Shown in pieces: positions 25,745 through 64,000 of a stretch of DNA of 64,000 bases; position 1 is the stretch's first letter; the number at the start of each line of letters is the position of its first letter. Source of the stretch: Astropecten irregularis (taxonomy: Eukaryota; Echinodermata; Asteroidea; Paxillosida; Astropectinidae); contig OZ020264.1 of NCBI GenBank assembly GCA_963971285.1, forward strand, positions 13,220,431 to 13,284,430. The letters are read 5' to 3'. The translations under genes were made by a program, and so were the position numbers. The notes under the pieces were generated by a model. It did not search any database and was not told the origin of the DNA. It saw only the letters and a program-made list of their open reading frames with translations.

Positions 25745-27040
25745 ATGGATACAAGAACATACATGCATCTATTGGTTGTGTCTTTGTGGTGTTTCTTGAG
25801 TACAGGTGGACTTATGATGGTTGTCAGTGCACAGACAGTGAATGCATGGATCGAAACACCAGAGGCTGATCGTAAGGAGGGCGGGCAGGTTGACATGAGG
25901 TGCGTGGCTTACTATGATGTCTCCGATACTGTTCTGGAATGGAGGTCTAAGAAAACAGGGATGACGCTTAGACGGCATAGAACCACTGTAACAACCAACC
26001 CACGGTTTACGTTCGAGTTTACGGCGAGCACAAGTCAGATGACTCTAGACTTCACCATCACTGATTTACAGAGGAATGACACTGATGAATATACATGCAA
26101 TCTCCGCGAAACCGTTGGCCAAGGTGACACCATTATATCAACTGACAGTGTAATGCTATCAGTGTTGTACTTCCCCAGTGAGTCCTTCCCTATTTGCTCC
26201 CCTAATGGATCCATTACAGTAGACATTGGAACAGAGTTGACCTTGCAATGTTCATCTGAGCCTGGTAACCCGACAGTCACGATGGTGATATCTCAAGGAT
26301 CGTCCACCTCCAGCATGTACACGTGGAGTGCATCAACCTATAACAATATAATTGTGCGGTCATTGACCCTGACAGTGGGTTATACTCTTGACACTGTTTT
26401 CCATTGCAATTTTACATCAGAAACCTATCCTTGGATGTCTGCTTCATGTACCATGGGACCAATCAGGGTAAGAAATGTACAAGAATCGATGACACTACAA
26501 CCTGCTGCTGAGACAGACCAGTCACTAACAATCCCCATGGCAGCCTTCGTGGTTGCTGTCATCCTTCTTGTAGTCTCTGTCATTATCATCATCTTGCTCA
26601 TCTATTACGTCATCAAACTCAGACGTCTTCTAAGAACCACAGAGGAGAAGGCAACCAATGTACCGACAGCTGATCCCTACAAGGAGCTACAACCAACGGA
26701 TGACAGCAACAGACAGTACATGGAACCTACGACCAATGAAACAGGTGATATCCAGCACACGTACAGCCAAGTAATCAGAGAAGATAGAGATGAGAGCAGC
26801 AGGTCAGGGGAAGACTACGAGGAACCGTCCCGTGAAAGCCCCAACATGGACCCAGCTACTATAAAGGAATCTACGTCCGCACATCACACGTACTTCCAAG
26901 CATTCCAAGCAATCAGAGAAGGTAGAGGTGAGAGCAGTAGGTCAGGGGAGGACTACGAGGTACCGGCCCGTGAAAGCCCCAACATGGACCCAGCTACTGA
27001 GGGATCTACGCCCGCACATCACACGTACTTTCAAGCATGA
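25745..27040 (+). CDS. Ig gene A: two-Ig-domain membrane receptor, truncated tail
   Basis: Reads 431 residues from the ATG at 25745, chosen because paralogues share MDTRTYM; upstream in-frame sequence has no ATG. Signal peptide about 1-30 (ending VVSAQ), V-type Ig domain with Cys53, Trp66 and DTDEYTC (Cys118), then a second Ig domain entered through SVLYFPSESFPICSP. The membrane span is about 263-289, followed by KLRR. The tail has DPYKEL, RQYMEP, HTYSQV and EDYEEP/EDYEVP motifs in imperfect tandem units (26758-27360). Reading stops at 27038-27040 where a repeat unit lacks about 68 bp, a change that is not a multiple of three; homologous tail continues in another frame to 27461. Probably a cell-surface signalling receptor with a damaged tail. 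Unlike the gene at 32245 it lacks a complete ITIM or ITSM before the stop. The coding region has no intron. Confidence 0.85.
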   Translation: MDTRTYMHLLVVSLWCFLSTGGLMMVVSAQTVNAWIETPEADRKEGGQVDMRCVAYYDVSDTVLEWRSKKTGMTLRRHRTTVTTNPRFTFEFTASTSQMTLDFTITDLQRNDTDEYTCNLRETVGQGDTIISTDSVMLSVLYFPSESFPICSPNGSITVDIGTELTLQCSSEPGNPTVTMVISQGSSTSSMYTWSASTYNNIIVRSLTLTVGYTLDTVFHCNFTSETYPWMSASCTMGPIRVRNVQESMTLQPAAETDQSLTIPMAAFVVAVILLVVSVIIIILLIYYVIKLRRLLRTTEEKATNVPTADPYKELQPTDDSNRQYMEPTTNETGDIQHTYSQVIREDRDESSRSGEDYEEPSRESPNMDPATIKESTSAHHTYFQAFQAIREGRGESSRSGEDYEVPARESPNMDPATEGSTPAHHTYFQA

Positions 27041-27360
27041 AAGCCCCAACATGGACCCAGCTACTGAGGGATCTACGCCCGCACATCACACGTACTTTCA
27101 AGCATTCCAAGCAATCAGAGAAGATAGAGGTGAGAGCAGTAGGTCAGGGGAGGACTACGGTGAGGTACCGGCCCGTGAAATCCCCAACATTGACCCAGCT
27201 ACTGAGGGATCTACGCCCGCACATCACACGTACAGCCAAACAACCAGAGAAGATAGAGATGAGAGCAGCAGGTCGGGGGAAGACTACGAGGTACCGGCCC
27301 GTGAAAGCCCCAACATGGACCCAGCTACTGAGGGATCTACGCCCGCACATCACACGTACA
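26758..27360 (+). repeat. Coding tandem repeat of the gene A tail (about 125 bp units)
   Basis: Five units begin CACACGTAC(A/T) and contain ATCAGAGAAGATAGAG, GGACTACGAGGTACCGG and CCCCAACATGGACCCAGC. Each intact unit encodes two tyrosines, HTY(S/F)Q and EDYEVP. The third unit (27021-27088) is cut down to about half length and shifts the frame. Confidence 0.9.
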
Positions 27361-27497
27361 GCCAAACAATTGAACTTGAAGACCAGGATGAAAGTCATGT
27401 CTATGACTACGCCAAGCCAGAGGACAAGGACACAGTTTATGAGGTGACTTCAGTTCAATAGAACAGGGACACCAAATATCAGAACATAACGTCTTAA
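27041..27497 (+). pseudogene. Frame-shifted remainder of the gene A tail
   Basis: From about 27039 the tail continues in the +1 frame to a TAG at 27459-27461, with three more tail units, then YDYAKPED and VYEVTSV as in gene B. After that stop the same frame continues to 27497 with TKYQNI, the ITSM that ends gene B. So gene A shows two separate lesions relative to its sisters: the short-unit frameshift and a nonsense codon before the ITSM. Alternative splicing within the repeats could bypass the first; this cannot be excluded from sequence alone. Confidence 0.8.
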
Positions 27498-27554
27498 TAT
27501 AACTGAGTATCCATTACATCATGGAACAATGAGCAGACCGCGTTCGTTTACTAA

Positions 27555-27650
27555 CATACAGCATCAGGTGAACACCCTGAGAGTGACTACGCCCAACCAG
27601 AGGCAAAGGAACTTAAAATACAAAGAGATGTCAGCATCATAGACCACTAA
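27555..27650 (+). pseudogene. Fossil tail segment behind gene A
   Basis: One frame reads SDYAQPEAKE, close to YDYAKPEDK of the live tails; the neighbouring frame then reads LKYKEMSAS and a stop, resembling SKYEEV of gene C. The frame break between the two halves indicates a decayed duplicate of the tail end. Related copies lie behind genes B and C. Confidence 0.6.
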
Positions 27651-27721
27651 ATATGTGATATGAACCACATCATGAACAGGTTATGAAATGCAGCTTGGAT
27701 ATCACATCGGACATTGAATGT

Positions 27722-28318
27722 TTATTGTTATATTACACCTTAGTAGATCCTTGTCATTTGATTGGAGGATTGTATGTCACGTGATATTTGATAAATAGAC
27801 CAATTCATGGCTTACGTCACAACCGTTGAAATTTGTTCCATCCACCGTGCATTTTTGGTGCCATCCGATCTGTACCATTGCACGCCAGCAGCCAATTTCA
27901 CGAAACTTTACGCCATGGCGTAAGTCCAACTTACGCCACAAATGTTGCGTAAGTGGCGCAAGAACTCTAATACGTGATTGGTCAAGCGGCGTTCCATTTA
28001 TTTGTCACTGCGTGCGCGCGTACGCGTTGGTGTGCAACGCGCGTTACTGTAATAAGCGCATAAAGATTTTAAGCTTTTTTTGTCTCTTAAAATGTTATCC
28101 TCCAATCAAAATCAAATGACAAAGATCTACTTAGATGTTATATAAAACAAATAATGAATGTTTCACATTCGTAGAATGGTAAAAATAATTTCATGAGGTG
28201 ACAGATGGACTGTTCCATTCCACTCGGCTTCGCCTCGTGAAATGGAACAGTCCATCTGTCACCTCATGAAATTATTTTTACTATTCCACTCATAAACATT
28301 CATTATTTGTATAATAAT
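27722..28318. mobile_element. Compound inverted-repeat insertion, absent from the gene B flank
   Basis: An outer element (about 27727-28143) has complementary ends TCATTTGATTGGAGGAT and ATCCTCCAATCAAAATCAAATGA. A second near-perfect hairpin (about 28137-28318, CATTCATTATTTGT arms) adjoins it. The paralogous flank at 30890-30915 runs straight through the insertion point, so it entered after duplication. Confidence 0.75.
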
Positions 28319-29309
28319 CATATATATTAATTGTTGCTTATTATAGACAAATACAACTTCACATTGAACAATCAGAATCCAGTTTTGTATACAAGTACCT
28401 TTTTCTGGGGTTTGAAATCATTGTATATACAGTGGAACGCCACTATAACGAACATGATGGGATGTACATTCATGATGTGGTCGTTCGTTATAGTGAACAA
28501 TGTTCAGCATGCCTATACGTAGGACACAAAAACTGGGAGTCAAGTATGATGTTCGGTATAGACAAATGTTCGGTATAGCAGTGTTCATTATAGTAGCTTG
28601 TTGAGTATATGAATGCAGCTGCTTAGTGCCTAAATATCATGTATTGATTTGTAATTAGATTAGTTTATATACATTTATATAAGTCAGGTTGTGTTGGTGC
28701 TGGGGTTATGAACAATTCTCTACGGAGTTTGTTAAGAAGCTATTATGCTGCAAATATCATACGAGTCATATCAACCAGAATGACCATTCAATGCAGTGCT
28801 GTTGTAAGTTGTCTCGATGAAGAATTCTGGAATATCCTTGATCAAACGCCTCAATGATATTCAGACACAGTGTAAATTTACATCATTTTGTAAAATGAAC
28901 ATACTTGCACCACAACTGTACATGTGTGAAATAGTGGAGAGGAATTTTAGTATAACAAAATCTGCTGTAAATGGCTAAAGACAAATCATTTTCAAAGCAA
29001 TGGCTGACCGTTGAGTGGACATTAGATTCAGTTCAAATGCCGATTCGCACATATGTCATCGCTCAAACCCAAACATGTATATTATAGAAACATAAAATTA
29101 TACAGGCCTCCTTGTTTGTGAATCTTGCAATGAGCTTTCCAAACAAAGACATTAATGTAGAAAAAGAAATCAAATGAATAAACTTTGTGAACATTGAACC
29201 CGGAAGGTGCGTCAATATTATTTACAACCAAACTCCCCTACTGTGCGTATATGAATGTAGTTATTGCTGATGTTCATTGATGCGTGTACAACTCATAATG
29301 CATCTAGAG

Positions 29310-29484: not shown

Positions 29485-30675
29485 ATGGATACAAGAACAT
29501 ACATGTATCTATTGGTGGTGTGTGTGTGGTGTTTCTTGAATACAAGTGGACTTCTGATGGTTGTCAGTGTACAACCAGCAGTGAATGCATGGATCGTAAC
29601 ACAGGAGGCTGATCGTAAGGAGGGTGCGCAGGTTGAGATGAGGTGTGTCGCTACAAACCTGCAGTCAGATCACATCGTGGTCTGGGCGACCGAGGACCCA
29701 GAGATGACTCTGAGATGGAATGAGAGTACTATAACAACCAACCGACGATTTGAGTTCGAGACTACACATCCAGGTACTGGTCAAACTACTCAAGTCTTTA
29801 CCATCACTGATTTGCAGAGGGACGACACTGATGAATATATATGCAATGTCCGTGATCCCATACTTACTGATGGCGGCCTCCGCATTCTAGATTCATCCAG
29901 TGTAATACTATCAGTGTTGTACTTCCCAAGTGAGTCCTTCCCTATTTGCTCCCCTGATGGACCCATTACAGTAGACAGTGGAACAGAGTTGACCTTGCAA
30001 TGTTCATCTGATCCTGGTTACCCGTCAGTCACTATGGTGATATCTCAAACACGATCCACCTCCAATATGTACACGTGGAATGCATCAATCTATGGTGGTG
30101 GTGTAGTATCGCGGTCATTGACCCTGACAGTGGGTTCTACTGATGAGAATACTGCTTTCCATTGCGTTATTACATCAGCGTCTTTTCCTGGGACGACTGC
30201 TTCATGTACCATGGGACCAATCAGGGTAAGAAATGTACCAGAGCCGATGACACTACAACCTGTTACAAGTACAACACAACCTGCTGCTGAGACAGACCAG
30301 CCACCAACAATTCCCATGGCAGCCTTCGTGGTTGCTGTCATCCTCCTTGTTGTCTCTGACATTATCATCATCTTCCTTATCTATTACGTCATCAAACTCA
30401 GACGTCTTCCAAGAACCACTGAGGAGAAGGCAACCAATGTACCGACAGCTGATCCCTACATGGAGCTACAACCAACGGATGACAGCAACACACAGTACAT
30501 GGACCAAGCTACTAAGGGATCTACGTCTGCACATCACACGTACTGCCAAACACTTGAAGACCAGGATGAAAGTCATGAGTATGACTACGCCAAGCCAGAG
30601 GACAAGAACACAGTTTATGAGGTGACTTCAGTTCCACAGAACAAGGACACAAAATATCAGAACATCAAGTCTTAA
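29485..30675 (+). CDS. Ig gene B: two-Ig-domain receptor with ITSM and Asp in membrane span
   Basis: Single exon, 396 residues. Signal peptide 1-30; V-type Ig domain (RCVATNL, DTDEYICN); second Ig domain with SVLYFPSESFPICSP and TASCTMGPIRV; Thr-rich stalk; membrane span about 276-302. The span contains Asp292, where the sister genes A and C have Val, through one base difference (GAC against GTC). The tail carries DPYMEL, TQYMDQ, HTYCQT, YDYAKP, TVYEVT and a C-terminal TKYQNI, which fits the ITSM consensus TxYxx[VI]. ITSMs in vertebrate SLAM and PD-1 receptors recruit SH2 proteins such as SHP-2 or SAP; the same use here is inferred. V-domain group 2, second-Ig group a, tail class alpha. Confidence 0.9.
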   Translation: MDTRTYMYLLVVCVWCFLNTSGLLMVVSVQPAVNAWIVTQEADRKEGAQVEMRCVATNLQSDHIVVWATEDPEMTLRWNESTITTNRRFEFETTHPGTGQTTQVFTITDLQRDDTDEYICNVRDPILTDGGLRILDSSSVILSVLYFPSESFPICSPDGPITVDSGTELTLQCSSDPGYPSVTMVISQTRSTSNMYTWNASIYGGGVVSRSLTLTVGSTDENTAFHCVITSASFPGTTASCTMGPIRVRNVPEPMTLQPVTSTTQPAAETDQPPTIPMAAFVVAVILLVVSDIIIIFLIYYVIKLRRLPRTTEEKATNVPTADPYMELQPTDDSNTQYMDQATKGSTSAHHTYCQTLEDQDESHEYDYAKPEDKNTVYEVTSVPQNKDTKYQNIKS

Positions 30676-32244: not shown

Positions 32245-33480
32245 ATGTATCTACTCCTGCTGTGTGTTGTAGCTTCTCTTCATACAGGTCCGCTGGTTGC
32301 AGTCAGCGGACAAGTTGTGACTCTGATTAAATGGATGCCATTAGATGATCCTGTAGAGGGTGGTTTGGTTCAGCTACGATGTGATGCCTACAACCTAATG
32401 ACAGGTAATGTCATTGAGTGGTCAAGAGTCATCGCCAATCATGATGTGATTATAGCAAGGAATGGAATGACCATAGTGAACGTGAACGATTATTCAGTCG
32501 CTCTCATACCAAACACCACGCTGCCACATAGGGCTGAAATCCTTAGTATTTACAACATCCATAGGAATTACACCGGGTATTATTTTTGTAGAATCAAGGA
32601 TTCAGATGGAGACAGCGGCATCACACTGGCAACTGATGGTTATGATTTAACAGTTAATTACTTCCCATCTGACGTGTACCCTATCTGCTTCCCTAATGGC
32701 TCAATCACTGTACAAGAAGGAACCAGTCTAAATATGAGTTGCACTACCGAGGCAGGTCAACCACAAGTCTGGGTACAAATCTTAACGAATGGAATGATTT
32801 ATACATGGAGTACATCAACTAACAACGACATGAAAATATCAACATTACATCTGGAAGTAAGTGCAGCTCATAATGGTAACTCCATCACGTGTACAATCAG
32901 TTCGGAATCCACATTCCCTCGAATGGCAAGATTCTGCATCATTGGACCAATCACCGTGGTATCCATGGTTACACCATCATACATGACAACCAAACCGTCA
33001 ATTCCTCCCTACAGTGACACTATAATACCTACATCAGTCTCCTTGCAACCCAGCAACGCAGGGATGACGTCAGCTACTGGTGTTACACAGAAGGATGCTG
33101 TGACATCATCCATCCCCTGGTTAGCAACCTCCGTTTCATTCATCGTCCTCTTCATCATCTCTGTCATTATCATCATCTTGCTCATCTATTACGTCATCAA
33201 ACTCAGACGTCTTCTAAGAACCACAGAGGAGAAGGCAACCAACGTACAGCCAGCTGATCCCTACATGGAGCTACAACCAACGGATGACAGCAACACACAG
33301 TACATGCACCCAGCTACTAAGGGATCTACGTCCGCACATCACACGTACTGCCAAGCACTTGAAGTCCAGGATGAAAGTCATGAGTATGACTACGCCAAGC
33401 CAGAGGACAAGAACTCGAAATATGAGGAGGTTAGAATGGCACAGAAGAAGGACACAGAATATCAGAACATCAAGTCTTAA
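32245..33480 (+). CDS. Ig gene C: divergent ectodomain with class alpha tail, ITIM + ITSM
   Basis: Single exon, 411 residues from ATG 32245. The signal peptide ends VAVSGQ. The V-like domain (LRCDAYN, YTGYYFC) and second Ig domain (YFPSDVYPICFP) are clearly diverged from the other genes and lack the invariant hinge sequence. From about 33150 the DNA abruptly becomes almost identical to genes A and B: membrane span about 293-325, then KLRRLLRTTEEKATNV and the tail. Tail motifs are DPYMEL, TQYMHP, HTYCQA, YDYAKP, SKYEEV (canonical ITIM) and TEYQNI (ITSM). This is the most complete inhibitory-type tail of class alpha. Old ectodomain and young tail in one gene suggests gene conversion or recombination. 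The start follows an overlapping short upstream frame at 32228. Confidence 0.88.
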   Translation: MYLLLLCVVASLHTGPLVAVSGQVVTLIKWMPLDDPVEGGLVQLRCDAYNLMTGNVIEWSRVIANHDVIIARNGMTIVNVNDYSVALIPNTTLPHRAEILSIYNIHRNYTGYYFCRIKDSDGDSGITLATDGYDLTVNYFPSDVYPICFPNGSITVQEGTSLNMSCTTEAGQPQVWVQILTNGMIYTWSTSTNNDMKISTLHLEVSAAHNGNSITCTISSESTFPRMARFCIIGPITVVSMVTPSYMTTKPSIPPYSDTIIPTSVSLQPSNAGMTSATGVTQKDAVTSSIPWLATSVSFIVLFIISVIIIILLIYYVIKLRRLLRTTEEKATNVQPADPYMELQPTDDSNTQYMHPATKGSTSAHHTYCQALEVQDESHEYDYAKPEDKNSKYEEVRMAQKKDTEYQNIKS

Positions 33481-37405: not shown

Positions 37406-38545
37406 ATGGATACAAGAACATACATGCATCTATTGGTGGTGTGTGTGTGGTGTTTCTTGAATGCAGGTGGACTTTTGATGGTTGTCAGTGCACAACCAGC
37501 AGTGAATGTATGGATCGTAACACCGGAGGCTGATCGTAAGGAGGGTGCGCAGGTTGAGATGAGGTGTGTCGCTACAAACCTGGAGTCAGATCACATCGTG
37601 GAGTGGGCGATCGAGCACCCAGAGATGCCCGAAAAACAGAAGACTCTGAGATGGAATGTGAGTACTGTAACAACCAATCAACGATTTGAGTATGAGACTA
37701 CACATTCAGGTACTGGGCAAACTACTCAAGTCTTTACCATCACTGATTTACAGAAGGACGACACTGATGAATTCACATGTAATGTCCAGGAACGCATATC
37801 TACTGGAGGAAACATCATTGTAGCCAATTCTAGTGTAATGCTATCAGTGTTGTACTTCCCCAATGAGTCCTTCCCTATTTGCTCCCCTGATGGATCCATT
37901 ACAGTAGACAATGGAACAGAATTGACATTGCAATGTTCATCTGAGGCTGGTAACTCGGCAGTCAAGTTGGAAGTATTCACCAGTTCGACCAGCAACAAGT
38001 GTCTCCCATGGACAGTATCAAACACCAATGATCGATTGTCAAGCTCCTTGAATCTGACGGTGGATGTTACTCACGAAGGAACCGCATTCCAATGCATCAT
38101 CTCATCATCTCTTTTTCCTGGCATGCGACGTTCTTGCAGCATCAGAATCGCCATAAATAACCATGTTGAGGCACCATCAACTGAGCCATCCACGATCCAT
38201 CATCTCCCTACAATCCAGCCAACTACTTGTAACATTGTGCCTTTGATAGCAGCCCTTGTGGTGTCCCTCATCTTACTCATCGCGTCTTCCATCATCAACA
38301 TATTCCTCATTTCCCACAATTTCAAACTCAGACGTCAGATTAAAAGTCCCCAAACAGAGCAAGGACCCGCGCCAGTTACTTCTGAGGCTTACACTGAGCT
38401 CCAACCCAGGGATGATAGAACCAGTGGGTATTTGGAGCCATCGAAGAGGGAGACATCTACTGACCACGTGGTCTTCTCACAAGCTGTGCAGGATGAAGGT
38501 CAGGGGGATGAATATGAGCGAGTTGGAGACATGAAAAATGCATAA
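37406..38545 (+). CDS. Ig gene D: two-Ig-domain receptor with short tail
   Basis: Single exon, 379 residues. Signal peptide 1-30; V-type domain of group 2 (RCVATNLESDHIVEW, DTDEFTCN) with an EMPEKQ insertion shared only with gene F; second Ig domain of group b (FQCIISS, RSCSI). Membrane span about 276-305 followed by FKLRRQ, a relative of class alpha. Tail tyrosines are EAYTEL, SGYLEP and DEYERV; none fits the strict ITIM or ITSM. The upstream 1.8 kb is duplicated from gene A, yet the V domain is nearest to gene F and the second Ig domain belongs to another group, so the gene is mosaic. Probable cell-surface receptor; ligand unknown. Confidence 0.88.
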   Translation: MDTRTYMHLLVVCVWCFLNAGGLLMVVSAQPAVNVWIVTPEADRKEGAQVEMRCVATNLESDHIVEWAIEHPEMPEKQKTLRWNVSTVTTNQRFEYETTHSGTGQTTQVFTITDLQKDDTDEFTCNVQERISTGGNIIVANSSVMLSVLYFPNESFPICSPDGSITVDNGTELTLQCSSEAGNSAVKLEVFTSSTSNKCLPWTVSNTNDRLSSSLNLTVDVTHEGTAFQCIISSSLFPGMRRSCSIRIAINNHVEAPSTEPSTIHHLPTIQPTTCNIVPLIAALVVSLILLIASSIINIFLISHNFKLRRQIKSPQTEQGPAPVTSEAYTELQPRDDRTSGYLEPSKRETSTDHVVFSQAVQDEGQGDEYERVGDMKNA

Positions 38546-40261: not shown

Positions 40262-40327
<66 letters not shown>

Positions 40328-40570
40328 AACAGTGAAAACTCCCTCGGCATTTTAAAATCTGTTCGCATGATTTTTTCTCTTCCAAAGCTCAAAATTATTT
40401 TTGGGTCAACTAGTTTTACCGTCTTTTCTTGATAAATACAGCATCAAGGCGGAAAAACGTTTACCGGTATATGTTTCTACCATCACCAACTTATACCCTG
40501 TAAGTTATTATAGGTAATTATGTGAAGATTTCTGTTTCTGATTCCTACCAAAGTATGATAGTACCTTTAA
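40134..40570. mobile_element. MITE family A copy carrying a CAA microsatellite
   Basis: Starts TTAAAGGTAATATCACATTT and ends AAGTATGATAGTACCTTTAA. Internal sequence as in other copies except for a trinucleotide expansion. Confidence 0.75.
40261..40328. repeat. (CAA)n microsatellite
   Basis: About 22 perfect CAA/AAC triplets inside a MITE. Gives spurious poly-Gln, poly-Asn and poly-Val frames. Confidence 0.95.
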
Positions 40571-41101: not shown

Positions 41102-42559
41102 ATGGATTCAAGGATCCTACTCGTCTGGTTGTACGTGGTGTCTTATGTATCTGGACTCCTGGTGGTTGTCAGTGCACAACCAGCAGTGAATGCATGGATC
41201 CAAACTTCGGAGGCTGATCGTAAGGAGGGCTCGCAGGTTGAGATATGGTGCGTCGCTACAAACCTGGAGTCAAATCACACCGTGGAGTGGAGGACCGAGG
41301 ACACCACTCTCAGATGGGGTGTGAGTACTGTAGCAACCGAAAAACGATTTGAGTTCGAGACTACAGGTGCAGGTACTTGGCAAACTACTCAAGTCTTTAC
41401 CATCACTGATTTGCAGAGGGACGACACTGATGAATATATATGCAATGTCAATGATCCTATAGGTAGCGGAGGACACTACGTTGTAGCCACATCCAGTGTA
41501 ATGCTATCAGTGTTGTACTTCCCCAGTGAGTCCTTCCCTATTAATTGCTCCCCTGATGGACCCATTACAGTAGACAGTGGAACAGAGTTGACCTTGCAAT
41601 GTGTATCTGAGGCTGGTAACCCGCCAGTCACCATGGTGATATATCAAACACCATCCACCTCCAATATGTACACGTGGAATGCATCAATCTTTGGTGGCGG
41701 TGCAGTATGGCGGTCATTGACCCTGACAGTGGGTTCTACTGATGACAATACTGCTTTCCATTGCGTTATTACATCAGCATCTTTTCCTGGGAGGTCTGCT
41801 TCATGTACCATGGGACCAATCAGGGTAAGAAATGTGCCAGAGCCGACGACAGAACTTACTACATCAAAGACAGAAACCACAACATCTCAACCAGCAACTG
41901 AACGTTCAACGAAACCTGCACCGTCACCGTCAGATGTCTCAGTAACTACATCAGTAACTGAAGAGTCAACAGAAGAGTCAACAGAAGAGTCAACAGAAGA
42001 GTCAACAGAAGAGTCAACAGAAGAGTCAACAGAAGAGTCAACAGAATACCCACTCTCCCCGTCTAACATCGCCTTGATAGCAGGTGCATCTGGCGGTGGA
42101 GCAGTTGCACTTGTTCTCATCCTGATTCTCATCTTGATTTGCCGAAGATGCGGAGTCTGCAGCACTAAGAAATCACCTCCCAAACTCACCGCTCAACTGG
42201 GCCAGTCTAACCTCCACACTGACTCCAAGTGTGGATCAGCAGCTCCTGTGAATCAGACACCAGACGATGGAACATACACAGAGCCGCTAGACGTGAATGT
42301 AACGGTCCCTCCAGGTGTATTCCGTTACACTGACAATGCGTCAGCCATAGCCGCAGCCGCAGACTATACACCGATATACGCACAACCACACAAGGAAAGA
42401 AAGCGCCAGAGTGGCACGGACAGACCGACTGACCATGAATCGTATCAGGATGCTCCGGAGCAGACTTACATGCACACCAATCCTATTTATGATTCTGGTA
42501 CACAGTATGACATGGCTGGTCCATTTGACGTTAGTTCACATCCAACAGACGAGAAATGA
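41102..42559 (+). CDS. Ig gene E: two-Ig-domain receptor, class beta membrane span
   Basis: Single exon, 485 residues. Signal peptide ends VVSAQ; V-type domain group 2 (VEIWCVATNL, DTDEYICN) and second Ig domain group a (TMVIYQ, SASCTMGPIRV), close to gene B. The stalk is Thr/Ser-rich and contains about seven TEES repeats from a 12-bp unit. The membrane span at about 322-348 (IALIAGASGGG then LILILILICRR) belongs to class beta, shared with genes I and J, not B. Tail tyrosines: GTYTEP, FRYTDN, DYTPIYAQP, ESYQDA, QTYMHT, PIYDSG and TQYDMA, mostly YxxP-like sites that could bind SH2 adaptors; no strict ITIM. An ectodomain like gene B with a tail like gene I marks it as a mosaic. Confidence 0.88.
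   Translation: MDSRILLVWLYVVSYVSGLLVVVSAQPAVNAWIQTSEADRKEGSQVEIWCVATNLESNHTVEWRTEDTTLRWGVSTVATEKRFEFETTGAGTWQTTQVFTITDLQRDDTDEYICNVNDPIGSGGHYVVATSSVMLSVLYFPSESFPINCSPDGPITVDSGTELTLQCVSEAGNPPVTMVIYQTPSTSNMYTWNASIFGGGAVWRSLTLTVGSTDDNTAFHCVITSASFPGRSASCTMGPIRVRNVPEPTTELTTSKTETTTSQPATERSTKPAPSPSDVSVTTSVTEESTEESTEESTEESTEESTEESTEESTEYPLSPSNIALIAGASGGGAVALVLILILILICRRCGVCSTKKSPPKLTAQLGQSNLHTDSKCGSAAPVNQTPDDGTYTEPLDVNVTVPPGVFRYTDNASAIAAAADYTPIYAQPHKERKRQSGTDRPTDHESYQDAPEQTYMHTNPIYDSGTQYDMAGPFDVSSHPTDEK
41948..42048 (+). repeat. 12-bp coding repeat in the stalk of gene E
   Basis: Units of GAAGAGTCAACA, about eight copies, encode TEES. Nearly perfect, so likely young and length-variable. Confidence 0.9.
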
Positions 42560-43958: not shown

Positions 43959-45632
43959 ATGGATTCAAGGATCCCACTCGTCTGGCTGTACGTGGTGTGT
44001 TATGTAGCTGGAATCCTGATGGTTGTCAGTGCACAACCAGAAGTGAATGCATGGATCGTAACACCGGAGGCTGATCGTAAGGAGGGTGGGCAGGTTGAGA
44101 TGAGGTGTGTCGCTACAAACCTGGAGTCAGATCACATCGTGGAGTGGGCGATCGAGCACCCAGAGATGCCCGAAAAACAGACGACTCTTAGGTGGAATGA
44201 GAGTACTATAACAACCAATCAACGATTTGAGTTCGAGACTACAGGTGCAGGTACTGGGCAAACTACTCAAGTCTTTACCATCACTGATTTGCAAAGGGAC
44301 GACACTGATGAATATTATTGCAATGTCCATGAACGCATATCTACTGGAGGAAGCCGCATTGTAGCCAATTCTAGTGTAATGCTATCAGTGTTGTACTTTC
44401 CCAGTGAGTCCTTCCCTATTTGCTCCCCTGATGGATCCATTGCAGTAGACAATGGAACAGAGTTGACCTTGCAATGTTCATCTGAGGCTGGTAATCCGAC
44501 AGTCATGATGGATGTTCGTGAAAACATATCAAGATGCAAAACGTACAATTGGACAATGTCAAAAGTAAATGATATGATAATAACGTCATTGGCAGTAGAT
44601 ATGCTTGATGATTATGTAACATTTGAGTGCGTCATATCTTCCATGTATTATCCTGGTATGAATCGTTCGTGTATCATCGGACCGATCAGTGTGAATGGAG
44701 TGACTGAATCAGTCATGGAGTGCACACCGGAACCACCAACAGCGACATCACCTATGTCTAATAATTCCGAATCGATAGCAGGTGCATCAGCCGGTGGAGC
44801 TGCTGCAGTTGTTCTCATCCCAGTTCTCGTGTTGATGTTCATCTTGATTTACCGAAGACGCAGAGGCCGTAACACCAAGGAGTCATGTTCCAAACCCACC
44901 TCCCAGCTGGACCCATCCCAGCCTCTTGACCCCATTGGACTGGAAGGTCAGGACGACTCTGTCATTCCAGACTCTAGTGCCTACGTGAAAATGAATCTCG
45001 AACCTGACTCCAGGAAGGAATTACCAAGGATGACGGTAGACCCATCTCCTCCCGTATATGCCAAACCAAAGGTTGCAGGTAAACCCAACAACAGCAAGGA
45101 AGAAGCCCTGATACCATACAGGTCAGTTCATGATACCACAGAGCAGAGCTACATCAATCCTGTATTCAGTTCAGACGTTGCATATGACACTCCTCGTTCA
45201 CATGAAACAAACACAACTCCATCCCAAGCCCTCAAACCAGTGGCAATGATTTCACCGACTAAGATCCCCAAGAAACCACCGCCTTACAAACCCAAAGCAA
45301 ATCGTGCCAGCGATCCCCTTACCAACAATCCTAACCAGCTTGGTATGTCCTCATCACGGCCTACATCTACCCCGTCATCGCTACCAACACACCCCGAGGA
45401 TATCACCGTAACCTCGGCCCAGGATGACGGCAATACACAGAGCAGTCAGGCTACTTTACCCATCTATGCTCAAGTCACTAAGCCCAATAATCAAACCAAC
45501 ATGGAAACATCTGGTGATGGTATTGTATATGCTGATCTAGACCTACATTCACTATCATCTGATGATGATAATGTACACGCACATACTGACCCAACGGTGT
45601 ATGCAAGTGTCGGGGGAAATAATTTCGAGTGA
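43959..45632 (+). CDS. Ig gene F: two-Ig-domain receptor with ITIM + ITSM and proline-rich tail
   Basis: Single exon, 557 residues, the longest complete tail. Signal peptide like gene E; V-type domain group 2 with EMPEKQ insertion; second Ig domain group b but diverged (VMMDVRENISRC). Membrane span about 272-300 (SIAGASAGGAAAVV, YRRRRG), a class beta relative. Tail motifs in order: SAYVKM (YxxM, PI3-kinase type), PVYAKP, IPYRSV, QSYINP, VAYDTP, a proline-rich KKPPPYKPK, IYAQV, then IVYADL (canonical ITIM) and, 29 residues on, TVYASV (ITSM). The ITIM-ITSM pair near the C-terminus resembles inhibitory receptors of the PD-1/SLAM/Siglec type by convergence or ancestry. Likely an inhibitory cell-surface receptor; inferred from motifs only. 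Confidence 0.9.
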   Translation: MDSRIPLVWLYVVCYVAGILMVVSAQPEVNAWIVTPEADRKEGGQVEMRCVATNLESDHIVEWAIEHPEMPEKQTTLRWNESTITTNQRFEFETTGAGTGQTTQVFTITDLQRDDTDEYYCNVHERISTGGSRIVANSSVMLSVLYFPSESFPICSPDGSIAVDNGTELTLQCSSEAGNPTVMMDVRENISRCKTYNWTMSKVNDMIITSLAVDMLDDYVTFECVISSMYYPGMNRSCIIGPISVNGVTESVMECTPEPPTATSPMSNNSESIAGASAGGAAAVVLIPVLVLMFILIYRRRRGRNTKESCSKPTSQLDPSQPLDPIGLEGQDDSVIPDSSAYVKMNLEPDSRKELPRMTVDPSPPVYAKPKVAGKPNNSKEEALIPYRSVHDTTEQSYINPVFSSDVAYDTPRSHETNTTPSQALKPVAMISPTKIPKKPPPYKPKANRASDPLTNNPNQLGMSSSRPTSTPSSLPTHPEDITVTSAQDDGNTQSSQATLPIYAQVTKPNNQTNMETSGDGIVYADLDLHSLSSDDDNVHAHTDPTVYASVGGNNFE

Positions 45633-49759: not shown

Positions 49760-50206
49760 ATGGATCTTGCCGTTACAGCATGCATCATTTTCGGATTTTT
49801 GCTTAATATAAGCCCCCTGATGGTTGTCAGTGCACAAGCTACGACAGACGCAACGACACAAGCTACGACAGACGCAACGACACAAGCTACGACAGACCTC
49901 AAGCCAGACACACCATCTCCCATCACTTCATCAGTCATTGCAAGTGCAGTTGCCGGAGCAGGTCTCATCCTCGTGGGACTGGTGACCATTACTCTCATCA
50001 TCTGTCAACGCATGCAGGGATGCCACCACATCAGGAACCGCCCTCGACCTTCTGAAACACAGGTGTCTCACATTGATCCAATGTCACTGCAGGTGTCTTA
50101 TAGTGAGAGCACTCAGTATACAGGACCCACACCAAAGGACACCATTCAGCAAGAAATGTCTCGGCAAACTCTTGGAAGTATCGATGAGAACACAACCAAA
50201 GTGTAG
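49760..50206 (+). CDS. Gene G: Ig-less membrane protein derived from the Ig family
   Basis: Open frame of 148 residues. Signal peptide (about 1-26, ending LMVVSAQ) is followed directly by a Thr-rich repeat of ATTDATTQ units, then the class gamma membrane span (about 59-83, SAVAGAGLILVGLVTITLIIC) and a tail with SETQVS and TQYTGP as in gene H. Both Ig domains are absent: the signal peptide joins the stalk with the frame kept. The frame stops at 50204-50206 where gene H reads on, and a related C-terminal piece lies at 50344-50601. It may be a pseudogene, or a small membrane protein that competes for or modulates signalling of gene H. The preserved frame and signal sequence argue against random decay; the broken tail argues for it. 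Confidence 0.65.
   Translation: MDLAVTACIIFGFLLNISPLMVVSAQATTDATTQATTDATTQATTDLKPDTPSPITSSVIASAVAGAGLILVGLVTITLIICQRMQGCHHIRNRPRPSETQVSHIDPMSLQVSYSESTQYTGPTPKDTIQQEMSRQTLGSIDENTTKV
49846..49905 (+). repeat. 24-bp coding repeat in gene G
   Basis: Two and a half units of GCTACGACAGACGCAACGAC-type sequence encode ATTDATTQ. Confidence 0.85.
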
Positions 50207-53154: not shown

Positions 53155-54801
53155 ATGGACGGCGTCGTAACATTATGCCTAATGTTCGCATTGTTCATTA
53201 ATATAAGCCTCATGGTGGTTGTTAGTGCACAGCCAACAGTGCATGCATGGATCGTAACACCGGAGGCTGATCGTAAGGAGGGCTCGCAGGTTGAGATGAG
53301 GTGTGTCGCTACAAACCTGGAGGATATTTACCTCATTGACTGGGAGACACACGACCCAGTGATGCATCTGAGATGGGGAGAGACTACTCTATCAACTAAC
53401 AAACGATTTGAGTTCGAGACTACACATCCAGGTACTGGGCAAACTACTCAAGTCTTTAACATCACTGATTTGGAGAAGGACGACACTGATGAATATTCAT
53501 GCAATGTCCGCGAAGCCATATCCACTGGTGGGCATTTCACTGTAGCCACATCCAGTGTAATGCTATCAGTGTTGTACTTCCCCAGTGAGTCCTTCCCTAT
53601 TTGCTCCCCTGATGGATCCATTACAGTAGACATTGGAACAGAGTTGCACTTGCAATGTTCATCTGATCCTGGTTACCCAGCAGTCACTATTGTGATATCT
53701 CAAACATCATCCACCTCTAATTTGTACACGTGGAGGAATACAACCAATGATGATACCGTTTCGCGGTCATTGATCCTGCGAGCGAGTTTAGCCGATAACA
53801 ATACTGATTTCCATTGCGTGACTACATCAGAGACTTTTCCTGGGATGTCGGAGTCTTGTTCCATTGGACCAATCACAGTAAGAAATGCAACAGAGCTGGC
53901 TACAGAACGTGCCACACCAACATCAGTTTCAACTACACAATTTGAGTCATCGGAATCCGTTCCAGACGTCGCAACACAACCCAGGACAGACCCCAAACCA
54001 GGCACGCCTTCTCCTATCACTGCATCAGACATCGCAAGTGCAGTCGCCGGGGTAGGAATCATCCTTGTGGGACTGGTGACCATTACTCTCATCATCTGTC
54101 ACCGCATGCAGAAGAACCGTGTACGCCAATCACCTACTGAAACACAAGTGTCTAACGTTGATCCCTATGCGGCACTACAGGTACCTGGTAATGAGAATAC
54201 TCAGTACATGGGACTCGCACCAAGGGGCACAAGTCAGCAAGAGACATCTCACCAAACTCCTGTAGGCATCAATGAGGACACAAGCAGCGCACAGCCAGCT
54301 GATCCAAGTATGACAATACGGATACCTGATAATGAGAATGCACAGTATGTGGGACTCACACCACAAGACACTAGAGAGCAAGAAACATCTTTATACCAGA
54401 ATCCCCAAGTTATACATGAAAATACAACCTCTGTACAGCCAGCTGATCCCTACATGGAGCAACAACCAACGGATAACAGCAGAGGACAATACTTGGTACC
54501 TATGACTAAAGGAACAGGCGACATCCAGCACACATACTTCATCTCAGAAGATAAGAATGACCGACAGGGATCATCAGTCCAGCAGCAAACCTCCCCACCA
54601 GTCGAAGGTGTCGACACACCCGAGGCTGTAGAAGACACAAGTGTCGATCAGCACGCATTCGTCAACCGAGCCGCGCCAAAAGAGACAGATACCTTGCCGC
54701 ACTTATACCAGGAAGTAGAGGAAGACGACGAAGATTCGGATCATGAATACGAGAAACCAGACGAGGAGAACTCTGACTATGAAATTGTACAGGCGCCATG
54801 A
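53155..54801 (+). CDS. Ig gene H: two-Ig-domain receptor with class gamma tail and C-terminal ITIM
   Basis: Single exon, 548 residues from ATG 53155, matched to the start of gene G. Signal peptide ends VVVSAQ; V-type group 2 (RCVATNLEDIYLIDW, DTDEYSCN); second Ig group a (TIVISQ, ESCSIGPITV). Stalk of about 45 residues; membrane span about 292-318 (class gamma, as in gene G). The tail of about 230 residues has an imperfect repeat of about 60 residues with DPYAAL/TQYMGL, DPSMTI/AQYVGL and DPYMEQ/GQYLVP, then HTYFIS, HLYQEV, HEYEKP and SDYEIV. SDYEIV near the C-terminus fits the ITIM consensus. QPADPY and HTY motifs are shared with class alpha tails, so gamma and alpha tails are related. Likely inhibitory surface receptor, by motif inference. 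Confidence 0.9.
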   Translation: MDGVVTLCLMFALFINISLMVVVSAQPTVHAWIVTPEADRKEGSQVEMRCVATNLEDIYLIDWETHDPVMHLRWGETTLSTNKRFEFETTHPGTGQTTQVFNITDLEKDDTDEYSCNVREAISTGGHFTVATSSVMLSVLYFPSESFPICSPDGSITVDIGTELHLQCSSDPGYPAVTIVISQTSSTSNLYTWRNTTNDDTVSRSLILRASLADNNTDFHCVTTSETFPGMSESCSIGPITVRNATELATERATPTSVSTTQFESSESVPDVATQPRTDPKPGTPSPITASDIASAVAGVGIILVGLVTITLIICHRMQKNRVRQSPTETQVSNVDPYAALQVPGNENTQYMGLAPRGTSQQETSHQTPVGINEDTSSAQPADPSMTIRIPDNENAQYVGLTPQDTREQETSLYQNPQVIHENTTSVQPADPYMEQQPTDNSRGQYLVPMTKGTGDIQHTYFISEDKNDRQGSSVQQQTSPPVEGVDTPEAVEDTSVDQHAFVNRAAPKETDTLPHLYQEVEEDDEDSDHEYEKPDEENSDYEIVQAP

Positions 54802-56764: not shown

Positions 56765-56845
56765 TATACCAATACCAGTTAGATCGGTGTAGAACACTGG
56801 TATTCTAATCCAGTGGTGCCGGGTTCAATCCCCGCCCGCACACAA
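56765..56845 (+). mobile_element. tRNA-like SINE fragment
   Basis: TCGGTGTAGAACACTGG resembles a degenerate D-arm and GCCGGGTTCAATCCCCG a T-arm with B box. No full cloverleaf closes. Confidence 0.45.
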
Positions 56846-57436: not shown

Positions 57437-58915
57437 ATGGATGGAGGTATGTCAAGGATTCTGTTCGTGTTGTGTGTGTGGTGTGCACTCGATGTAGGTG
57501 GACTACTGATGGTTGTCAGTGCACAGACAGTGAATGCATGGATCGTAACACCGGAGACTGATCGTAAGGAGGGAGGGCAGGTTGACATGAGGTGCGAGGC
57601 TTACAATACTGACTCCGATAATGTTCTGGAATGGAGGTCTGAGAAGACAGGGATGACTCTTAGACGGACGGGCTCTACCATTGATGTAATAACCAACCCA
57701 CGGTTTATGTTCGAGATTACGACGGGCACGAGGCAATTGACCCTATACTTCACTATCACAGATTTGCAAAGGAATGACACCGATGAATATACATGTAATC
57801 TCCGTGAACTCATTGGTGAAGGTGACAACATTGTATCAACTGACAGTGTAATGCTATCAGTGTTGTACTTCCCCAGTGAGTCCTTCCCTATTTGCTCCCC
57901 TGATGGATCCATTACAGTAGACAGTGGAACAGAGTTGACCTTGCAATGTTCATCTGAGGCTGGTAACTCGGCAGTCATGATGGAGGTTAATCAAACACAA
58001 GGAATGTCCAGCAATGCATGGACATCATGGAGCATGAATGATACAATCTCACAGTCGTTAAACTTGACGGTGAACATTGCTGATAATGGAGCTACATTCC
58101 AGTGCATTATCTCATCAGAGGCTTACCCTGGTATGACTCGTTCCTGTACCATCGGACCAATCAGTGTCAATAACGGAACACAGCCCACAAATCTTACAAC
58201 TGAATTCACCCCATCATTTTCATCGGATCCTTTGACACAGCAAAGCGAAGCTACTGCAACACCTTCCTCATCCAATACCAGACCTACAGTGGTCGCTACC
58301 ACTCTCGGTAATATGACAAGAGCGGCATCCTCAGTATCCAACATCGCCTTGATAGCAGGTGCATCTGGCGGTGGAGCAGCTGCACTTGTTCTCATCCTGA
58401 TTCTCATCTTGATTTGCCGAAGACGCGGAGTCTGTAACACCAAGAAATCACCTCCCATACCCAATGACCGACTGGACCCATATGACCTAAACATCGACTC
58501 CAATACTGGGCCAGCTTTACCGGTGAATCTGACACAAGACCACGTATACGAAGAGCCAGGAGTAGCTGGTGTGAGAGGTAATACGGAGCCAAGAACCCCA
58601 GCAGACGTGGAGGAATCCAACCCAAATATCTACACGGATGGACCGGCTCCTGCGTCCTCTCACCAGGATCAGACCCCAGCTGCACACGGTGAGAATGACA
58701 GCCGTGATGGGACCACGGAGCCCGCAGCAAGCTCCAGTCCTGTGTACTTTACCCTTAACCCTGAACGCACCGAAGAGGAGAATCCTGCCCCACCCGTGTA
58801 CGCTATACCACATGCTAACAGACAATCAGTTAGTGGACGGGATGACAGAAGAGAGGGGCCTCACGACATCACCGGACAGACCTTCTCTAATCCTACGTAC
58901 AAAGACATCATCTGA
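57437..58915 (+). CDS. Ig gene I: group 1 V domain with class beta tail
   Basis: Single exon, 492 residues. The signal peptide ends LMVVSAQ. The V domain matches gene A (TVNAWI, GGQVDMRC, VLEWRS, TGMTLRR, DTDEYTCNLRE). The second Ig domain is group b (FQCIISSEAYPGM, RSCTIGPISV), unlike gene A. A long Ser/Thr stalk precedes the class beta membrane span (about 302-328), near-identical to genes E and J. Tail tyrosines: DPYDLN, HVYEEP, NIYTDG, PVYFTL, PVYAIP and PTYKDI; YxxP and YxxL types but no strict ITIM. So the gene joins a gene-A-like V domain to a gene-J-like second domain and a gene-E-like tail. Probable surface receptor; ligand unknown. Confidence 0.9.
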   Translation: MDGGMSRILFVLCVWCALDVGGLLMVVSAQTVNAWIVTPETDRKEGGQVDMRCEAYNTDSDNVLEWRSEKTGMTLRRTGSTIDVITNPRFMFEITTGTRQLTLYFTITDLQRNDTDEYTCNLRELIGEGDNIVSTDSVMLSVLYFPSESFPICSPDGSITVDSGTELTLQCSSEAGNSAVMMEVNQTQGMSSNAWTSWSMNDTISQSLNLTVNIADNGATFQCIISSEAYPGMTRSCTIGPISVNNGTQPTNLTTEFTPSFSSDPLTQQSEATATPSSSNTRPTVVATTLGNMTRAASSVSNIALIAGASGGGAAALVLILILILICRRRGVCNTKKSPPIPNDRLDPYDLNIDSNTGPALPVNLTQDHVYEEPGVAGVRGNTEPRTPADVEESNPNIYTDGPAPASSHQDQTPAAHGENDSRDGTTEPAASSSPVYFTLNPERTEEENPAPPVYAIPHANRQSVSGRDDRREGPHDITGQTFSNPTYKDII

Positions 58916-61900: not shown

Positions 61901-62315
61901 GCAATGAGCAACTCCAGATTTTGACGTTTTCATTAATTGGAATGGTGAAACCGAACAAAATTAAGAATCCAAAATGTATTTAGGGAGTTATAGATTTCAG
62001 CTATGCTCTCGGACTTTATCAAAGGGAAACGTCAACAGCCTCAGTAGGGAAGGAGTCAGTCAGGCGTGAAGACAACACAGGTGTATTGGGAAACAGAGTA
62101 AAGTTTGTATGGAGTCTGGTTGGGATGAAGTGCAGAGTTCATAGGTAATGTGCTGAATGAGTCAAGTTCGGCTCTACACGGAAGTATACTGCATGTATAC
62201 TAGTGCACAGTACAGATTAGGCATGAAGATTGCGTCACTCCGAACTTGAAATCTGTCAGAAGTTCAATTTATCGATCAATTTCTGTTCCTAGATTAATTT
62301 GTTAGGCTACACAAC
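58916..62315. other. Intergenic region between Ig genes I and J
   Basis: Contains a family C MITE. 59690-60330 has three degenerate, roughly 200-bp repeats with ATGATATCAATT and ACCGGCTTG blocks. The rest is AT-rich with no recognisable exon. Confidence 0.5.
58961..59186. mobile_element. MITE family C, inverted orientation
   Basis: Ends GGGGGCTTACGAAACGGAGG and CCTCCGTTTCGTAAACACCC; the core reads as the complement of the other copies (CTATTTTGATACCCGTTATT). Confidence 0.8.
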
Positions 62316-64000
62316 ATGGATCGATGGCCAACTGTGAGTGTGTCTCTACTGTGTGTTTGGTGTGTACTCCAAGCTGCTGGACTCATCATGGTTGTCAATG
62401 GACAAAGTGTGACAGCAAGAACCGTAAGACCAGTACGTGCTGATGGTATCAAGGAGGGCGGCCAGGTTGAGATGGCGTGTACATTTGTCTCCGTGGACAG
62501 TTTGGGAACCACAGGTTACACCGTGGAATGGATCTCACTAAACCCACAACAGACACTGAATGTTGGCGATCAGTCTGCAGCTGGAGTTACAAGTAGGTAT
62601 ACGTTTCAAACAGATGATGTAACAGCGTATGTAATAATTCAATACTTCAACATTACTAACCTACATAGAAGTGACAGTAACGATTATGTATGTCAGGCAC
62701 GTTATACAGAAGGAGGAAGCACCATTGCCTCTACGTCCAATGTTATAATGCTATCAGTGCTGTACTTCCCCAGTGAGTCCTTCCCTATTTGCTCCCCTGA
62801 TGGATCCATTACAGTAGACAGTGAAACAGAGTTGACCCTGCAATGTTCATCTGAGGCTGGTAATCCGTCAGTCAATGTGAGTGTGTTTCAATTGCATTCA
62901 AATTATAATGGACCCGACTTTACTGACATATGGACATCATCCAGCATGAATGATACAATCTCACAATCACTAACTCTGACTGTTGATTCTGGTAATGACA
63001 ATGCTGCATTTACTTGTGTCATATCATCCGAGCAATTCCCGAACATGAGAAGGTCTTGTGATATCGGACCAATAAATGTAAGGGCTCCGACAGATGTCAC
63101 AACAAATCCTCCAATGAAACCTGGGACATCGACATCAACACCAACACCGACACCAACACCGACACCAACACCAACTTCACCAGTCTCTCCTTCACTGAAC
63201 ATCGCCTTGATAGCAGGTGCATCTGCCGGTGGAGCAGCTGCACTTGTTCTCATCCTGATTCTCATCTTGATTTGCCGAAGACGACGCTCGAAACGGAAAC
63301 CTCGAATACCAGATACAAACCTGAAACCAGATGCTTTCACAACCAGCCAAATTGATGTCAAGGAACATGAGATTCAAGATTCGCCACCGAGCAACCACCC
63401 ACAAGGGAGCCAGGCAACGCCCGGTGTGGATCCAGCCACCTCTAGCCTTCTCGTAGGACATGATCAAACTCAACAACACCAACCCAGTCTGTCGATGACT
63501 ACAGGCAGCGCCGACCAGCCAACCAGTGGTACCGCGGAGCAGAGTTTCACCAACCCTGCATATGATCCCAAGGACTCCAACGAATCTTTCCCACCCAAAC
63601 CAGTGGCAATGGTTTCACCGGTGCCAAGGAAACCTAAGCCCTACAAGTCTCACAAGGCAGACCGCATCAGAAACGCCCGTGACGAGACTGAACGAGAACA
63701 AAGCAACCATGTGTCATCATTGGCAAGCCCAGCACCAACACATCAAGAGGATGAATCTGTACCTGGTGTGATGGTAGATACAGGGAACGGTGAAGCCTCG
63801 CCTCTTGAAACGCAAACACTACCCGTAGCTACGCAAGGAGGTGTAGCTACAGGAGGCACTGATGTCCAACCTCAACAAACCCCTCAAGCTCCAACACCTC
63901 CCGCCTCTATCCCTCTAGGTGTGGATCCAAATGCAGATGGCACTGTGGCTGCGCCTCAACTAGCCTCACCAGGCCCACCTCCTGCCTCTGTCCCTATAGG
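62316..64000 (+). CDS. Ig gene J (partial): divergent V domain, class beta tail, runs off the window
   Basis: Open frame of 561 codons to the window edge without a stop. The signal peptide ends VVNGQ. The V domain is diverged (MACTFVSVD, DSNDYVCQA) and shares little with the other genes. From about 62740 the invariant hinge begins (MLSVLYFPSESFPICSP), then a second Ig domain of group b (SMNDTISQSL, RRSCDIGPI). The stalk has a TPTP dipeptide repeat from ACACCAACACCG units. Membrane span about 295-321, near-identical to gene I. The tail has NPAYDP and a proline-rich part (VPRKPKPYKS) like gene F, then a long Pro/Thr/Gln-rich stretch. The C-terminal motifs lie beyond the window. Confidence 0.88.
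   Translation, partial: MDRWPTVSVSLLCVWCVLQAAGLIMVVNGQSVTARTVRPVRADGIKEGGQVEMACTFVSVDSLGTTGYTVEWISLNPQQTLNVGDQSAAGVTSRYTFQTDDVTAYVIIQYFNITNLHRSDSNDYVCQARYTEGGSTIASTSNVIMLSVLYFPSESFPICSPDGSITVDSETELTLQCSSEAGNPSVNVSVFQLHSNYNGPDFTDIWTSSSMNDTISQSLTLTVDSGNDNAAFTCVISSEQFPNMRRSCDIGPINVRAPTDVTTNPPMKPGTSTSTPTPTPTPTPTPTSPVSPSLNIALIAGASAGGAAALVLILILILICRRRRSKRKPRIPDTNLKPDAFTTSQIDVKEHEIQDSPPSNHPQGSQATPGVDPATSSLLVGHDQTQQHQPSLSMTTGSADQPTSGTAEQSFTNPAYDPKDSNESFPPKPVAMVSPVPRKPKPYKSHKADRIRNARDETEREQSNHVSSLASPAPTHQEDESVPGVMVDTGNGEASPLETQTLPVATQGGVATGGTDVQPQQTPQAPTPPASIPLGVDPNADGTVAAPQLASPGPPPASVPI
63129..63180 (+). repeat. Short coding repeat in the stalk of gene J
   Basis: ACACCAACACCGACACCAAC-type units encode alternating Thr-Pro. 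Gene-specific, like the stalk repeats of genes E and G. Confidence 0.85.

Follow-up and report, generated by a model that had tools for sequence, protein, structure and literature searches.

How can a family of cell-surface immunoglobulin (Ig) receptors diversify when each receptor is encoded straight through in one open frame, and what might such receptors recognize? The question is raised by a 64,000-nucleotide stretch of the genome of the sea star Astropecten irregularis (GCA_963971285.1, contig OZ020264.1), referred to here as “the window”. The window corresponds to C29:13220431-13284430, where C29 is its own contig (13.7 Mb) in a genome of 476 Mb. Lists of open reading frames and tblastn searches placed ten paralogues on one strand (+), as the original prediction had it, and their span in window coordinates is 25745-64649. 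Nine of the ten encode a signal peptide, a V-like Ig domain (D1), a C2-like Ig domain (D2), a stalk, one membrane span and a tyrosine-bearing tail in a single frame. “One exon” in this text means an uninterrupted open frame; introns in the 5' untranslated region are possible.

We consider it somewhat better than an even bet that these genes encode germline-encoded paired cell-surface receptors carrying one of two kinds of tail (A or B), which exchange modules inside one exon and probably serve immune or allogeneic recognition. The family has so far been found only in sea stars. Among the observations behind this reading are single frames in nearly all of the family, ectodomains that closely resemble one another yet sit on either type of tail, and conserved tyrosine motifs in part of the tails.

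Organization of the locus

The window genes are listed below. By strict motifs we mean [SILV]xYxx[ILV] for the immunoreceptor tyrosine-based inhibitory motif (ITIM) and TxYxx[VI] for the switch motif (ITSM). Coordinates are those of the window, “TM” is transmembrane and “aa” is amino acids.

g1, 25745..27040, + strand: signal peptide, D1, D2, stalk, TM span and tail A in a 431 aa frame, strict ITIM/ITSM absent from the frame
g1 tail minisatellite, 26833..27369, + strand: repeated tyrosine modules GEDYEVP ... HHTYFQ
g2, 29485..30675, + strand: full-length receptor with tail A (structure model m0b69d37e7f46)
g2 D1, 29572..29922, + strand: V-like Ig domain, aa 30-146 (approximate)
g2 D2, 29923..30234, + strand: C2-like Ig domain, aa 147-250 (approximate), four conserved Cys
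g2 membrane span, 30316..30405, + strand: helix, aa 278-307
g2 cytoplasmic tail A, 30406..30672, + strand: DPYMELQ, YDYAKP and TKYQNI
g3, 32245..33480, + strand: divergent clade II ectodomain, tail A
g4, 37406..38545, + strand: full-length receptor, tail unclassed, without strict ITIM/ITSM
g5, 41102..42559, + strand: full-length receptor whose tail, a B variant, has no strict ITIM/ITSM
g5 stalk, 41956-42046: 12 bp repeat
g6, 43959..45632, + strand: full-length receptor, tail B containing the ITIM IVYADLDL and the ITSM-type TVYASV
g7, 49763..50206, + strand: signal peptide, stalk, TM span and start of a tail, without Ig domains
g8, 53155..54801, + strand: full-length receptor, long tail A with repeated modules
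g9, 57437..58915, + strand: full-length receptor whose tail B variant lacks VYADL as well as any strict ITIM/ITSM
g10, 62316..64000 and on past the window, + strand: full-length receptor of 778 aa, tail B with IVYADLNL and TDYASI

The frame of g10 overruns the window by 649 bp, staying open to C29:13285079 (window 64649). Pfam Ig models match nine of the ten window proteins, several above the curated cut-offs, and g7 has no match at E up to 0.1. The proposal that signal peptide, Ig domains, membrane span and tail share one exon holds for nine genes as open frames. It fails for g7, a degenerate copy related to g8 with tail pieces across three frames and remnants to about 50601, and in part for g1, the frame of which stops inside the tail minisatellite. 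There an exact 67 bp repeat (26971-27105) brings about a frame shift, and the tail modules go on in another frame to about 27461. Of the ITIM/ITSM tails also proposed for the genes, strict patterns were found in five of the nine full-length window genes (g2, g3, g6, g8 and g10) and not in g1, g4, g5 or g9.

Three query genes gave no family match in the window left of 25745, nor did a profile search find one in the 6.9 kb 3' of g10. The right end of C29 is telomeric (294 TTAGGG copies in the last 1778 bases) and lies ∼0.39 Mb from the end of the cluster. An assembly artefact is unlikely, given that the window contains no N, that C29 reaches a telomere at its right end and that comparable single proteins occur in other genera. 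The stretch at the left end of C29 has N at both ends.

A family of single-frame genes

Searching the genome with g2 returned 80 places, which merged into 66 loci with the weakest E near 1e-3; g7 is not among the 66, and 19 of them are not among the stretches that were fetched. An open frame of at least 300 aa is present at 61 of the 66 loci (median 437), as compared with 9 of 62 control I-set matches (median 133.5 aa; Fisher p = 1.6e-20), where the control is a rough yardstick made up of single-domain matches, not genes, from the best 150 of 691 candidates scored. Matches in a titin-like locus at C16:312-875 kb are excluded from these values; their inclusion brings the control to 34 of 150 matches with frames of at least 300 aa. 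The single-frame state of the family thus goes beyond chance. C29 bears 46 of the 66 loci while making up 2.9% of the genome.

For gene comparisons, 49 profile hits less two duplicates gave 47 genes, seven of which fell under 300 aa. The remaining 40 full-length genes, drawn from the window and 28 fetched stretches, were used. A second cluster, toward the other end of the contig (C29:543-651 kb), holds 15 divergent relatives with open frames of 317-639 aa, two of them among the fetched loci.

Exchange of modules between loci

The ectodomain tree was built from 31 genes (18 with tail A, eight with tail B and five unclassed), with nine divergent genes, one of them B, excluded. Eight changes of tail label are required on this tree to account for the eight B genes, and holding the B genes together was rejected by the approximately unbiased (AU) test (p = 9.2e-6). 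DNA was compared for 17 chosen pairs, including six B genes each with its nearest A ectodomain, and in all six of these A/B pairs the match stops at nt 712-770, which is the end of D2. Identity between g10 and 13543824 is 84% across 742 columns. In g2 (A) and 13546163 (B) the tails differ in kind and the ectodomains are closely similar: the two share 91% of their ectodomain DNA over 727 columns and 75% of the protein, with a synonymous divergence (dS) of 0.03 in D2. The g3 gene alone stands out by DNA for exchange of an A tail between ectodomain clades: its tail DNA is 91-93% identical to the tails of two clade I genes. The TM-tail of g3 and that of 13543824 agree at 93% over 289 bp, and the ectodomains of the two show no DNA match at E <= 1e-5.

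The two Ig domains also have separate histories in some genes. The D1 of g1 groups with g9 and two 7.1 Mb genes (support 98/100), and its D2 with g2, g5, g8 and 13546163 (97/98). Four such groupings were picked after viewing the trees; for g1, the data of either domain reject the grouping seen in the other (p = 1.9e-4 and 1e-4), and g4 goes with g6 in D1 and not in D2 (p = 0.018). In agreement with this conflict, 13546163 and C20_14157145 differ at a dS of 0.17 in D1 and 0.59 in D2. From the scatter of B tails, the ends of the DNA matches, the D1/D2 conflict and the dS values, we infer that modules have been exchanged between loci inside one frame. On this evidence D1, D2 and the tail are three modules exchanged without intron borders, with breakpoints near the domain borders.

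Cytoplasmic tails

A motif script classed the tails of the 40 genes as 18 A, nine B and 13 neither. The fullest A tails read DPYMELQ ... QYMxP ... HTYxQ ... YDYAKP ... [ST]xYExV ... YQNI, in which [ST]xYExV resembles an ITSM. B tails have proline-rich segments and, in part, a VYADL-type ITIM near the C-terminus. This ITIM (YADL or YAEL) is present in five of eight A. irregularis tail B genes and in 6/6 relatives chosen as B by eye; a second site, YA[SRT][VI], follows it in four of the eight and in four of the six relatives. Among other genera, Asterias and Patiria have both tails, and Acanthaster has tail B.

When the 40 tails were shuffled 1000 times, observed counts exceeded the shuffled means for ITIM (17 versus 6.2), ITSM (8 versus 1.7), YxxP (54 versus 23.9) and DPYxxL (12 versus 0.1). 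The counts of these four motifs, and of ITAM-like and PxxP motifs, were reached by none of the 1000 shuffles. ITIM and ITSM are conserved and above chance in part of the family. Conservation of tail A was calculated from 31 tails, comprising 11 of the 18 A. irregularis tails and 20 of 21 relatives tried (Asterias, Patiria and one other record). Seven tyrosine columns are better conserved than the 62 others (0.88 versus 0.72; one-sided p = 0.024).

Tail A was also considered as an immunoreceptor tyrosine-based activation motif (ITAM), and this reading was dropped. Five genes match Yxx[LI]x6-12Yxx[LI] where 0.4 are expected; A tails are not called ITAM because the second tyrosine often precedes xxP or another residue. 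By eye, a charged residue falls within the predicted 19-residue span in two of the 40 genes, g2 (D) and a divergent C16 gene (R), and none of the 40 was recognized as an activating partner that would bind an ITAM adaptor through a charged TM residue.

Tail length varies by minisatellites in g1 and, as protein repeats, in P0024 of A. rubens and P0032 of A. amurensis, and also by stops or shifts beyond which homologous tail sequence resumes. Two family genes at L013:8157-9947 and L015:45-1784 are 97-98% alike in ectodomain and tail, and have very proline-rich tails without strict ITIM. The gene model P0019 (Patiria miniata) looks by eye like a fusion of a tail B gene with an adjoining tail A gene of the family.

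Ectodomains and relatives

The Ig framework is well kept: W67 is invariant, and C54, C120, C155, C173, C227 and C241 are near-invariant. The structure model of g2 predicts two beta sandwiches and one TM helix. With V and C2 domains, canonical Cys and Trp, a signal peptide and one TM span in type I orientation, the proteins belong to the Ig superfamily.

Named relatives came from Asterias amurensis, A. rubens, Patiria miniata and Acanthaster planci in two protein searches (20 of 23 matches in one and 16 of 21 in another, the second scoring the best 7996 candidates by shared words). The sole named relative from outside the sea stars, a weakly matching fish Fc receptor-like 5 protein (E 5e-16, covering 13% of the query), was set aside as general Ig similarity.

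Ectodomains cluster by lineage. In a tree of 63 rows, which carries Shimodaira–Hasegawa-like approximate likelihood ratio support only, 19 of 31 A. irregularis genes fall in one starred clade and ten in another. A third ectodomain clade (support 94) holds 15 of 19 A. amurensis proteins, one from A. rubens and further proteins. Such a lineage-wise tree could also arise by gene conversion within species.

Other features of the window and genome

The remaining features of the window are, in window coordinates:

3294-4694, - strand: RING and B-box (TRIM-like) protein in a 466 aa single frame with a long GGQQGRGG repeat at its end
13900-13972, - strand: tRNA-Thr (GGT) gene
17666-18250, - strand: repetitive 194 aa frame with MSILCPFYV-like repeats and no Pfam match, probably a minisatellite
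40263-40331: (AAC)23 microsatellite between g4 and g5

Seven control I-set frames of 566-946 aa, among the matches listed, may represent further intronless Ig genes outside the family. They are located at C1:15232268, 16176615, 16186135, 25702365 and 29644571, at C20:1807948 and at C40:3544.

Weighing the explanations

The proposed mechanism runs as follows. Once phosphorylated, tail B would recruit SHP-type phosphatases, the binding of which is predicted from its motifs, and would damp the cell. Tail A may recruit adaptors resembling Crk, Grb2 or SAP. Expression would be on coelomocytes, where the balance of receptors with like ectodomains would set the response to variable microbial or allogeneic ligands. 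Without coding introns, short gene-conversion tracts could carry whole modules, repeat-rich tails included. The steps that can be read from sequence are anatomy, motifs, conservation and exchange. Because like ectodomains occur on both tail kinds, the receptors are interpreted as paired.

Several results weigh against this reading or narrow it. Thirteen of the 40 tails match neither type, and several B calls, g5 and g9 included, consist of one motif match plus tail similarity. The VYADL motif is absent from three of the eight B genes and the second site from four, and family-wide a strict ITIM occurs in only 15 of 40 genes and an ITSM in eight. YxN and YxxM are not enriched, 107 and 665 of the 1000 shuffles reaching the observed counts. 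The enrichments that were obtained flatter the case because paralogues are not independent, and the pair counts likewise assume independence. Exchange has its own limits: D1 did not reject the clustering, in D2, of g6 and 13540467 with five C20 genes (p = 0.139), which counts against a general claim. That ectodomain clades I and II regularly exchange A tails is unsupported, since a single clade for the A tails of clade II was not rejected (AU p = 0.55). Positive selection is not claimed, the ratios of nonsynonymous to synonymous divergence (dN/dS) having medians below 1 across domains. An adhesion role is also compatible with the fold matches, which include Rst, DIP, sDscam and SYG-1 besides antibodies.

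The main rival makes the family adhesion or recognition molecules of the Kirrel/DIP type for development, the nervous system or gametes, with tails that use the same SH2 proteins and have no immune role. We regard this as a serious possibility, though a distinctly less probable one. It draws on Foldseek, which places Rst D1-D2 on top and DIP, sDscam and SYG-1 within the first ten (absence of a protein family from the fold match lists was not taken to exclude it). An intronless three-Ig relative at C10:26175164 best matches SYG-2 and KIRREL1 in PDB and is not tied to kirrelL by name. The echinoderm gene kirrelL, itself intronless, acts in cell fusion (PMC8903837). Against adhesion, antibody V domains score equally well in VIA-align, and lineage-specific ectodomains, ectodomain/tail mosaicism and ITIM/ITSM-type tails are unlike a conserved single-copy adhesion gene.

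It is very doubtful that the pattern of ectodomains and tails reflects old tandem duplications with convergent tail motifs and no exchange of modules. Several B tails do find few B-tail partners, or just one, at E <= 1e-4, and for this reason a single origin of tail B is not established for some genes, g5 and g9 among them. Between g6 and 13546163, nevertheless, the B tails match at E about 1e-72 to 1e-81; the DNA of these two genes also matches at nt 34-553 and not over most of D2, and they belong to different ectodomain clades. The g3/13543824 tails and the AU tests on the B genes and on the D1/D2 groupings, given above, likewise argue for exchange.

As improbable is that these are mostly dead or dying tandem copies with frames that persist by recent duplication and homogenizing conversion while their tails decay via stops and frameshifts: g7 is degenerate, tails are cut in g1, g4, four C20 copies and C29_7243214, and frames are broken at C29:7.12 Mb (one locus) and on C8 (two loci), yet 40 full-length frames were recovered among the fetched loci, Cys frameworks and tail tyrosines are kept in other genera, and median pairwise dN/dS is 0.58 for D1, 0.54 for D2 and 0.59 for TM-tail. 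These values come from pairs whose dS stays below 1 in both domains; a ratio above 1 was obtained for D1 in 18 of 165 pairs, for D2 in 9 of 163 and for TM-tail in 2 of 65. The reading frames are, by this measure, maintained by purifying selection.

The paired-receptor reading is retained. An expanded immune or self/non-self family, as originally suggested, gains support from lineage-specific clades, kept ITIM/ITSM-type tails, similar ectodomains on different tails and purifying selection, and it is still something that we infer. Microbe sensing is as likely a role as allorecognition. The latter is a sensible first test because sea star coelomocytes are reported to respond to allogeneic cells: allorecognition is reported for those of Patiria pectinifera (PMC9763293), and sea star allograft reactivity is cited from 1976 (reference 13 of PMC9763293). 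The word “receptor” is absent from the main text of that paper. A stronger version holds that the family is the allorecognition system of sea stars, with D1 and D2 cassettes shuffled among single-exon genes, many of which lie near a chromosome end, and linked to inhibitory (B) or adaptor (A) tails, so that individuals would differ in their germline-encoded sets of matched inhibitory and activating receptors. This version is speculative, and we think it unlikely; if true, echinoderms would have their own counterpart of missing-self recognition, with gene conversion within one exon as the source of its diversity.

What goes beyond the original prediction is the exchange of modules, the two tail kinds, the tail minisatellites in relatives and the genome-wide spread. 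No description of the family was found in the open-access literature at the level of listings, or by term search of a 2026 review of immune diversification. As far as that review was covered, it describes echinoderm expansions of Toll-like receptors (TLR), NOD-like receptors (NLR) and scavenger receptors, best characterized in sea urchins, and a term search of its text did not find “IgSF”. Two LOC numbers of the family are absent from the main text of PMC13409769, as is LOC110979148 from that of PMC9759900. As to a link with the disputed sea star "Ig kappa" gene, no paper on that gene was among 20 of 134 listed results. The genes are concrete candidates for receptors of self or foreign in sea stars that can be typed, expressed and knocked down. 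They also represent a clear case of modular receptor evolution without introns, in which domain borders act like exon borders within a straight-through frame.

Comparison with known systems

The Hydractinia Alr proteins, the Botryllus FcoR proteins and the vertebrate paired receptors are relatives in kind, none of them a demonstrated sequence relative. Pfam searches of the ten window proteins gave no chitin-binding match, as would be expected of amphioxus VCBP, and no sushi match, as would be expected of FcoR. No cnidarian protein was among the matches listed in two word-based protein searches.

Like the sea urchin SpTransformer (185/333) genes, described as a tightly clustered, repeat-rich and mosaic immune family, the sea star genes are clustered, repeat-rich and mosaic; they differ in that SpTransformer genes have two exons. 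SpTransformer proteins are secreted effectors and are not known to have Ig domains or signalling tails.

The nearest precedent found for the intronless state is kirrelL, an intronless Ig transmembrane gene of echinoderms for which an origin by retrotransposition is proposed (PMC8903837). The likeness lies in a coding region without introns, which in our family takes the form of open frames. As compared by description, kirrelL is treated in that paper as a single skeletogenic gene, whereas the sea star family has 66 matching loci and ITIM/ITSM-type tails.

The Alr proteins of Hydractinia contain V-set and I-set Ig domains and are encoded by multiple clustered genes (PMC11999971). The sea star family resembles this allorecognition complex of 41 members in being made up of clustered Ig proteins, and it differs in having the coding part in one frame and three-module exchange, with allorecognition as a candidate role. 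Alr genes are multi-exon, and Alr tails carry tyrosine motifs.

FcoR proteins of Botryllus, encoded at 53 loci, are type I Ig receptors, the tails of which carry ITIM, hemITAM or other YxxI/L/V motifs; they are built of one V Ig domain, one sushi domain and two Ig domains of C2 type, and some swap motifs by splicing (PMC12065747). The two families are alike as type I Ig receptors with tyrosine-motif tails. Sea star tails, in contrast, differ between single-frame genes and not by splicing.

Vertebrate KIR, LILR, SIRP and Siglec receptors display like ectodomains on inhibitory and other tails, and are encoded in tandem clusters subject to gene conversion. Their genes comprise several exons, and the activating partners have short tails and a charged residue in the TM span, whereas the non-B partner of the sea star receptors has a long, conserved tail of its own.

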